Below are positions 7,394-10,677 of a DNA stretch of 18,737 bases, in pieces. Under the pieces are notes generated by a model. That model worked only from the letters and a program-made list of their open reading frames with translations, ran no database searches and had not been told where the DNA came from. Position 1 is the stretch's first letter, and every line of letters starts with the position of its first letter. Made by a program: the position numbers and the translations under genes. The DNA is from a bacterium (GTDB lineage: Bacteria > JAJVIF01 > JAGGVT01), in NCBI GenBank assembly GCA_021157815.1, contig JAGGVT010000116.1:1-18737 (forward strand), given 5' to 3'.

Positions 7394-7405
7394 CCGTTTT
7401 TTCAA

Positions 7406-7442
7406 CCTGCTAACCTTCTAACCTACTAACCTGCTAACCTTA
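7406..7442. repeat. 8-bp tandem repeat, about 4.5 units
   Basis: Consecutive units CCTGCTAA, CCTTCTAA, CCTACTAA, CCTGCTAA, CCTTA, differing only at the fourth base. It ends five bases before the stop of the minus-strand LVIVD gene. Confidence 0.6.
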
Positions 7443-7608
7443 AAAATCACCAAAGCTCCACACTCACGAACCCATTAAAACCACCTGCAAGATATGCCCT
7501 GTTGTTCTCAATATGTATTCCTGAGACTTTATGGATAATAAGTTCGCTGATAAATTCCGGATTTGATGGGTCAGAGATATCAATAATTTCCAAATGAAAA
7601 CTGTCAAA

Positions 7609-9129
7609 TTAAGCATAATTACCTGCAATAGCGCAGCTTTCCAGCATGGAATCAATGTAAAAAGAAGTAGTAATTACCGGATTTGCCGGATCGCCAATAT
7701 CCACAATAAATAAATCTCTACCACTTTGTTCGCCAAAGAAAGCGTAATTTCCTTCAACTGTTATCTTATAGGTTCGTATTCCAGAACCTGTATTTAACGA
7801 ACCATGCAATGAAGGATTTGATGGATCAGTGATATCCAGAATTAACAAGCCATTTGCTGTTGGATATTCATAACAGGTAATATATGCATAGTTTCCCTGA
7901 ATATCAGCATCCTGTATATCAACATCTATAAAATGCCCTGCGATTGAGGGAATCAGTGGATTCGATATATTGGCAATCTCCAGGCCATAATCCGCAGATA
8001 CCATATATGCATAATCACCTGAGACTTCAACACTCAATGAATCCCCATTCATGTCGAGAGTGCCGATTATCCCAGGATATCCCGGATTGCTGATATCAAG
8101 CAAATATAGGCCACTCGTGCCATTTGCCACATAAAGGTAATCACCATCGATGTACACATCACGTGCTGAACTTATATAGTTTGTCCCCATCTTCACTTCG
8201 GAAATGATATTTGGACTATATGGATTACTGATGTCAAAAGATGCAATTATGTCATGGTTTTCATTTCCACAGTATGCGTATGTGCCTTTCACATCAATGC
8301 TTTGTGGATAAAAACCTTTAAATGAACGGACATATTGAGGATCACCTGGATCACTAAAATCATAGATACTCAAACCGTCAGATAATGCAATCAAATATTC
8401 ACCGTATGCCTCTAGATTACAATAGAGAGGCAGTGGATTAGTACCAATTCTTGAGATATTATAAGGATCACTGATATCATATGTTGCCAAACTATACCAA
8501 CTTTGACCATCGTAGGAGATGTAAACACGGTTGTCTGAAACAGCTATTGAATAAACTATAACGCAATCATGCATTGAGTCAGACGAAACTCCACCACCGG
8601 AATTAGTCAATATTGGGTTTAGAGGGTCTCTTACATCAATTGCCGTAAAGCTCCAGGTTTGACATTCTTTATGGCTTATTAATACATACCCGGATATTAA
8701 TTCAAAAAGATCGTATGAATAATAGAGATCGAAATCATAAACGCTGATCACCTCTGGATTTGCGGGATCTGAGATATCAACTATTACTAGTTCGTTATCG
8801 TTTTGTGTGTAGTATGCATAATCGCCTGATACTAATGTTTTATAACTATCCCGAGTCTCGTTAATGGATTTGATTTCCGGATTGCCCGGGTCAGTGGCAT
8901 CAACAAGCACATAACCATGATATCCATCGATTGAACCATCAACGCAAATTGTGTTTCCTGCCATTGAAAGATAATTCATTGCTGCTGATATTTCCAATGA
9001 ACCGGTTATATATGGATTGGAACGGTCAGAGACATCTAATACTGTTAAAACAGAATTATCAGGATCAGAATTACGTTTTCCAATACATGCAATCTCACCG
9101 TTGGTGACTATATATGATGCCTTTGGCAC
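7609..9129 (-). CDS. LVIVD-repeat segment of the interrupted lipoprotein gene
   Basis: An open stretch between the two TAA codons, containing eleven complete repeats with motifs such as VIVDISDPANPEV, LLDISNPGYPGIIG and LILDITDPSNPSL. LVIVD repeats are believed to form beta-propeller-like surface proteins. The first usable start is a GTG at 9127-9129, which cuts into a repeat and has no good ribosome site; protein-like sequence continues upstream to 9276. It has no signal peptide of its own. These points argue that it is part of the gene starting at 10530 rather than an independent one. Confidence 0.6.
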   Translation of the reverse strand: MPKASYIVTNGEIACIGKRNSDPDNSVLTVLDVSDRSNPYITGSLEISAAMNYLSMAGNTICVDGSIDGYHGYVLVDATDPGNPEIKSINETRDSYKTLVSGDYAYYTQNDNELVIVDISDPANPEVISVYDFDLYYSYDLFELISGYVLISHKECQTWSFTAIDVRDPLNPILTNSGGGVSSDSMHDCVIVYSIAVSDNRVYISYDGQSWYSLATYDISDPYNISRIGTNPLPLYCNLEAYGEYLIALSDGLSIYDFSDPGDPQYVRSFKGFYPQSIDVKGTYAYCGNENHDIIASFDISNPYSPNIISEVKMGTNYISSARDVYIDGDYLYVANGTSGLYLLDISNPGYPGIIGTLDMNGDSLSVEVSGDYAYMVSADYGLEIANISNPLIPSIAGHFIDVDIQDADIQGNYAYITCYEYPTANGLLILDITDPSNPSLHGSLNTGSGIRTYKITVEGNYAFFGEQSGRDLFIVDIGDPANPVITTSFYIDSMLESCAIAGNYA

Positions 9130-9276
9130 TTCAACAATCCCAAGTATCTCCGGTTCTTCCGGATTCTCTATATCTAAAATCGTAAATGAACCATACTCAT
9201 GCCAGGAATAATCAACAACATATGCGTAATGTTCGAAAAACGTTATACTCGGGTGTTGGGTAACAGATCTTTTATA

Positions 9277-10530
9277 TTACCCAGCGACTTGCGGATTGAG
9301 TGGTATCCCTATCTGGGGAATTGCGGAAAGAACAAACGTGTTTGTATCAACATTCGGCGTTGACGCGCTGTCCCGGCATCGCACTCCAAACCAGTATGTT
9401 TGCCCATTCTCCAAGCCCATGAAAGTATATGGTTCGTTTGTTGTTACAATGACCGGGATTTGATCCCATGGGTCATTGTCTTCATCCATATAAAGCAAAT
9501 ATTCAACTGGTGGATTGCCTGCATCTGTTGCAGTTCCCCAAAAGACCTTGACACTTTCGTTCCCCCCATGAGCATTTTCAATTCCGATATTAGAATCCCA
9601 AACCGGAGGTTCGTTATCCTCACTTACTGTAATTGTTATCCTGTTAAATAATTCAAATGAGCCTGCGTTGGGTGATCGAGCTGCCAGATAGCCGGTATAT
9701 TCCCCGATTGGAACTCCTGCATTGTTGACAAGATTCAGTTTCCACGTTTGCGATGTAAACTGCTCAAACGAATAAAGAGGCTCATTAGTGATTTCAGGGC
9801 AATGCAACAGGACTTTGCTAACATCATCCTGCCAGTCGAGGACAGTTACCTCAACATCAGTGGATGCTCCAACACTGCTATATAAAACACCTTGAGTGAA
9901 ATTCAATATCTCATACGGCTCCTCACAATTGCCCGGGAAAGAGGCGTCGATTGCGAATTGGATATCGTAATTCGAATCGGGGCAGTATATCTGCAGATTT
10001 TCGGTATATGATGCCTGCGCCTGGAAATTCCGTCGCGTTGCTGTTTTCGCATACGCCATAAACGGATTAATCGTCAATCCCTCGGCTATATCCCACAATC
10101 CTGTCCAGTCATCCGCTTTTGAGAGTATATGACCTGCATCGTCGGTGTATATGATAAGGCGCACATCGAAAACACTCATATATGATGAATTCTTAATCGT
10201 AACGCTTACATGAACAGTTTCAGTCGCCGGGTCCCAATATGTCACCACGATTTCAGGTGGTTCGATTGACGACCTCACCGAATAATGGCGGTTCACTTCA
10301 CGGTTTGGTTCGATTGTCGCTGTCAGAGTTTCGGGATTTAGCTGAAGAGTCCACGTGCCAAGCAGATTTCGGTTTGAATTGTCCGCGTTCGTTTCCGGCA
10401 GTGGAATAGGGGAATCGATGCCTGAGTCCGGTTGAACACTCACCGGATTTGATTTCCCGGATGAGCATCCTGAAATAATAAATGCAAAAACGACAAAAAG
10501 CGTAACTGAAACAATATGTACTTTCCGCAT
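9277..10530 (-). CDS. Lipoprotein with unknown N-terminal module and FnIII domain (5' part of interrupted gene)
   Basis: 417 residues to the first TAA. The signal (MRKVHIVSVT, hydrophobic run) ends in the lipobox I-S-G-C with Cys22. Residues about 55-300 resemble the N-terminal module of the 3-3416 lipoprotein, with matching landmarks NPETLTATIEP (65), FDVRLI (121), LDWQDD (231) and GEYTGYLAAR (276-285). A fibronectin type III domain covers about 306-404, with VKVFWGTATD, YLLYMD and YWFGVRCRDSA. The ATG at 10530 follows GGGAG with an 8-base spacer; a GTG at 10608 in the same frame would place 26 extra residues before the signal peptide and is unlikely. If translation stops here the product is a short lipoprotein that could still be exported. 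Confidence 0.75.
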   Translation of the reverse strand: MRKVHIVSVTLFVVFAFIISGCSSGKSNPVSVQPDSGIDSPIPLPETNADNSNRNLLGTWTLQLNPETLTATIEPNREVNRHYSVRSSIEPPEIVVTYWDPATETVHVSVTIKNSSYMSVFDVRLIIYTDDAGHILSKADDWTGLWDIAEGLTINPFMAYAKTATRRNFQAQASYTENLQIYCPDSNYDIQFAIDASFPGNCEEPYEILNFTQGVLYSSVGASTDVEVTVLDWQDDVSKVLLHCPEITNEPLYSFEQFTSQTWKLNLVNNAGVPIGEYTGYLAARSPNAGSFELFNRITITVSEDNEPPVWDSNIGIENAHGGNESVKVFWGTATDAGNPPVEYLLYMDEDNDPWDQIPVIVTTNEPYTFMGLENGQTYWFGVRCRDSASTPNVDTNTFVLSAIPQIGIPLNPQVAG

Positions 10531-10677
10531 CCTGATTTCTCCCTGGATAATCTTATTACTGATATTTATATTAACGCCCTTTGAGGTTTCTCTTACTAAT
10601 TTTACCACATTATTTTAGATGCCCTTTCCTATAAGGAGTAATATTATTTTTACAACTGTTTGACAAGGGGTAAATCA

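Follow-up and report, generated by a model that had tools for sequence, protein, structure and literature searches.

The LVIVD repeat is a unit of 42 residues known from proteins on the cell surface of both archaea and bacteria (PMC2447325). Conserved in-frame stop codons have been described as widespread in bacteria, with dN/dS values under 1, and frequent readthrough of such stops has been argued (Belinky et al. 2021, PMC7918605). With regard to mutation, the GO system protects against GC to TA changes, and its enzyme MutY is frequently missing from bacterial genomes (PMC11078426). No study of nonsense loss in a lipoprotein family of the kind described here was found in the literature.

The window, the whole stretch of 18,737 nucleotides that was analysed, belongs to a genome (G000) of 3.2 Mb in 221 contigs with a completeness of 90.9%. 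It holds a gene on its minus strand whose longest segment matches the LVIVD-repeat family (PF08309) with 166.7 bits against a curated cut-off of 20.2. The gene differs from other LVIVD-repeat surface proteins in that the repeats are fused to a lineage-specific lipoprotein N-terminal domain and a fibronectin type III (FnIII)-like domain, and in that its frame is interrupted by stop codons. It shares with the genes of Belinky et al. (2021) single stops in an otherwise conserved frame; however, their stops are conserved between orthologs, whereas those found here are private to one genome and scattered among paralogs.

Reading frame and domains of the window gene

The original prediction for this DNA was a single lipoprotein frame of 1028 codons with two in-frame TAA codons, and this was borne out by translation from 10530 to 7447. 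The frame comprises 1,027 codons and a TGA, laid out as 417 codons, TAA, 555 codons, TAA, 53 codons and TGA, with stops at positions 418, 974 and 1028 of the 1,028-position translation only. Each of the five other frames has 47-91 stops over the same interval, which indicates that the open frame is not due to chance. The features of the gene and of its relatives are collected in Table 1.

Table 1. Features of the window gene, interrupted family copies and a dispersed repeat.
Feature	Position	Strand	Basis or remark
Ancestral single reading frame: lipoprotein N-terminal domain, FnIII-like domain, LVIVD propeller	7447-10530	minus	translation, Pfam, paralogs C123 and C23
Shine-Dalgarno-like AGGGAG	10539-10544	minus	8 nt 5' of ATG 10530, read directly
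Lipobox I-S-G-C (Cys22)	10465-10476	minus	aligns with lipobox Cys of 15+ paralogs
N-terminal lipoprotein domain, residues 1-305	9616-10530	minus	about 100 matches in own genome
FnIII-like domain, residues 323-388	9367-9564	minus	fn3 E 0.022, sub-threshold in Pfam
First in-frame TAA	9277-9279	minus	within N-domain/propeller junction motif; paralogs Ser, Gly or Thr
LVIVD-repeat propeller segment, 555 aa	7612-9276	minus	PF08309 E 6e-50
Second in-frame TAA	7609-7611	minus	at Tyr of N-Y-A-Y
Last LVIVD blade and C-terminus -VELW	7450-7608	minus	PF08309 E 5e-05; paralog termini alike
Original terminator TGA	7447-7449	minus	family terminus -LW* matches
Family copies C104	L137:11304-11306 (TAG)		TAG in one copy, TGA in neighbouring copy
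Family copy C206	L108:8846-8848 (TAA)		TAA
Family copy C195			TAA
Family copy C175			TAA
Family copies C98			TAA in one copy, TAG in another
Family copy C27			TGA; short, less certain
Family copy C215 (L109)			TGA plus frameshifts
Family copy C36 (L072/L043)			frameshift
Dispersed repeat of about 210 bases	L075:14751-14975, L095:9599-9820, L052:5811-6052, L138:3178-3419, L099:7780-7995, others		

Both stops lie where homologs have sense codons. The second TAA had been placed at the tyrosine of an N-Y-A-Y motif, and tyrosine indeed occupies this position in 64 of the roughly 108 repeat segments aligned; the further LVIVD repeat claimed beyond it, in frame to the terminal TGA, was recovered by the Pfam match to the last blade. 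At the first stop, the residues in three joined paralogs are S, G or T. These copies have the junctions PINPEIVA-S-L (C123), PVNPIIAG-G-I (C23) and PHDPFVAS-T-I (C215), as compared to PLNPQVAG-*-Y in the window, giving the common motif P-x-[ND]-P-x-[IV]-x-[AGS]-x-[LIY], and it follows that the first TAA falls inside the junction and is not a natural gene end. In paralogs C123 (905 codons) and C23 (906 codons), the N-terminal domain continues unbroken and in frame, past the position of the stop, into stretches of 12-13 LVIVD repeats. The termini of intact paralogs read -IIKLW, -IIDLW or -VVKLWVE, and the window gene has -VELW before its TGA. The joined paralogs C123 and C23 thus resemble the window gene in N-domain, junction, number of repeat stretches and -LW(VE) end; they differ in being uninterrupted and in lacking an FnIII domain between their N-domain and the propeller. 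An FnIII-like domain following the N-domain is also found in paralog C16. On the comparison of these sequences, the stretch 10530-7447 was one gene, in agreement with the claim that the FnIII lipoprotein and the LVIVD segment share a single frame with the first TAA between them.

Structure prediction of the read-through propeller, performed without an alignment, gave a mean pLDDT of 39, and a sequence search of solved structures returned no match at E 0.01. Directly 3' of the TGA of the gene, an 8-base unit (AACCTGCT) is present in 4.6 tandem copies (window 7404-7440).

In-frame stops across the lipoprotein family

The genome has about 100 matches to the family, and among these, with 1.43 Mb of sequence covered by a profile search, at least eight other copies have a mostly single in-frame stop, which may be TAA, TAG or TGA, and are scattered over the family tree. 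The absence of decay over 3 kb, to which the original prediction had drawn attention, holds in as far as the frame is open, but it does not set the window gene apart, as the other paralogs with stops show just as little decay and match the family profile as well as intact copies do. On the tree, six changes are needed for six stop-bearing copies, with no clustering, and the stop events are hence considered independent. Two of these copies, one TAG of C104 and the TAA of C206, have their stop at the identical and otherwise invariant Glu204 of an NCxEPY motif. A common origin of this stop was rejected given that the two copies are not sisters on the tree; that the same codon was struck twice is unusual though plausible by chance, at a rough estimate of about one in eight. 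Copies C215 and C36 are broken by frameshifts, showing that decay of the family is not limited to nonsense mutations.

The stops are unevenly distributed between genomes and between genes. Among the matches listed, 7 of 53 in this genome have an in-frame stop versus 0 of 97 in the remaining three genomes of the class (Fisher p 5e-4), a comparison which is somewhat uneven in that many matches in the three relatives are partial. A coding-potential scan of all genes in the 1.43 Mb gave six lipoprotein genes with clear in-frame stops and no more than three unresolved cases among other genes, whose number was estimated at 1,200 (Fisher p about 7e-6). Some candidate stops, among them those at FtsA/FtsZ and at the end of DnaJ, proved to be natural gene boundaries and were left out. 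None of the 35 ABC-transporter domains (ABC_tran) of the same genome contains an in-frame stop. The best match in a relative has about 30% identity, with no close ortholog, and a contig scan with the single domain yielded just one locus, in a distant MAG, and nothing closely related.

Four paralogs of the family with differing C-terminal parts occur in tandem in L034 (contig C118:1-10223), which suggests that domains are exchanged as modules behind a shared lipoprotein N-domain. Many contigs of the genome also carry a dispersed repeat about 210 bases long, with 93-97% identity between copies.

Competing explanations for the stops

That the locus represents two genes, with an FnIII lipoprotein terminating at 9277 and a separate LVIVD gene downstream of it, is scarcely credible, even though paralog C16 terminates naturally after its FnIII domain and GC content falls from 45.6 to 38.1% at the first stop. 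The residues PLNPQVAG preceding the stop are those of the junction motif of the joined paralogs, and the first start codon past the TAA is a GTG at 9129, located 49 codons in, within a blade and without a signal peptide. A like fall in GC, from 44.9 to 38.0%, occurs within the one frame of intact C123; together with the distant start codon this makes re-initiation as a second gene unlikely, and for the same reason the drop was rejected as a sign of decay. Errors of base calling or consensus in a metagenome assembly, leaving the genes intact in the cell, had been among the options offered originally. The incomplete assembly in many contigs, the position of some stops close to contig ends (C175:565, C215:377) and an excess of G>T changes (see below), which looks like oxidation of the library, an artefact that also yields G>T, could all be read in this way. 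Random error should strike all genes equally, however, and the concentration of stops in one dispensable family, with near absence elsewhere and none in ABC domains, renders it an unlikely general cause.

The genome-wide reassignment that had been judged improbable at the outset is indeed disfavoured. The ABC_tran matches are free of stops, two release factors of the RF-1 family (RF1/RF2) were found, TAA, TAG and TGA each serve as ordinary gene terminators in the genome, and there is no suppressor tRNA among the 32 of 41 tRNAs checked. Part-time decoding of the stops, by which one gene would yield a stub, a stub plus propeller and a full-length lipoprotein as had been proposed, would be in keeping with frames that continue without decay over hundreds of codons past a single stop, and with the reported prevalence of conserved in-frame stops in bacteria. 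Against this, the stops include TAA, TAG and TGA alike, the next base may be A, C or T with no common context, and the positions of the stops differ, apart from Glu204 in its two unrelated copies. Neither one conserved stop position nor a consistent stop codon with 3' context was found, none of the family matches listed for the other genomes of the class has a stop, both release factors are present with no stop-reading anticodon in the tRNAs checked, and copies with stops are dispersed over the tree. The proposal of three product lengths therefore finds no specific support and such decoding is quite improbable, while readthrough at a background level is possible. It is also conceivable, though very improbable, that reversible nonsense mutations, through G:C>T:A mutability and perhaps leaky termination, act as a stochastic off-switch, with the stop-bearing lipoprotein copies being silenced and recoverable reserves.

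We consider the window gene to be most probably a recent nonsense pseudogene of an outer-surface lipoprotein, one of several formed by recent and independent nonsense mutations in a redundant family of surface lipoproteins, and from the sequence data we assign this a probability of roughly 0.78. The ancestral protein would have had a signal peptide and lipobox, the family-specific N-terminal domain, the FnIII-like domain and a propeller of about 13 LVIVD blades with -LW as its terminus. The TAA at the start of the propeller and that in the last blade would then each have arisen by an independent point mutation, with the present product being at most a lipidated stub of 417 residues that misses the propeller. 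Such losses may be tolerated given the many redundant paralogs, several of which have been struck alike. The suggestion that the stops are recent is supported. Profile scores reveal no decay as yet, and we infer that the loss was neutral and recent and that oxidised guanine was its source. What stands out would then be the family-wide concentration of the mutations and their lean towards G:C>T:A and not a new decoding mechanism, the window gene itself being a commonplace dead gene whose pattern of mutation is unusual. When a single gene is viewed, a stop in an intact-looking frame is easily taken for recoding; here, the paralogs of the gene in its own genome settle most of the question.

Mutation spectrum and repair of oxidised guanine

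The residues replaced by ten stops, as judged from paralogs, were Glu in five cases, Gly in two, and Tyr, a Ser-rich position and an S/G/T position in one each. A first-position G>T change (GAA>TAA, GAG>TAG, GGA>TGA) accounts for seven of the ten, a share that codon usage would put at 21% (p 0.0014), in a test that was post hoc, covered ten stops only and used inferred codons. The other three are compatible with C>A, which equals G>T on the opposite strand. The window gene's own two stops are not clear G>T changes.

MutM (PF01149) was not detected in the genome at its 90.9% completeness, and the sole HhH-GPD protein, of 237 aa, possesses an EndoIII-like iron-sulfur motif, leaving no recognisable MutY. 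Three of four genomes of the class (G000, G001, G003) are without MutM and have one short HhH-GPD enzyme, whereas the fourth possesses MutM together with a pair of HhH-GPD enzymes. The lean of the stop spectrum towards G:C>T:A fits this apparent absence of MutM and MutY, and may stem from unrepaired 8-oxoguanine in the lineage. The other two genomes of family f2 likewise have neither enzyme, yet they show no stops, and loss of repair can for this reason be no more than a partial cause. That G>T nonsense changes gather in a single redundant family of surface proteins, in a lineage that apparently lacks repair of oxidised guanine, would present a modest and testable link between DNA repair and the turnover of surface proteins. 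In self-repeats of the genome with 95-99.9% identity, G:C/T:A differences stood to transitions as 37:36, compared with ratios of 0.38-0.48 in older pairs, the repeats being few, short and non-independent.
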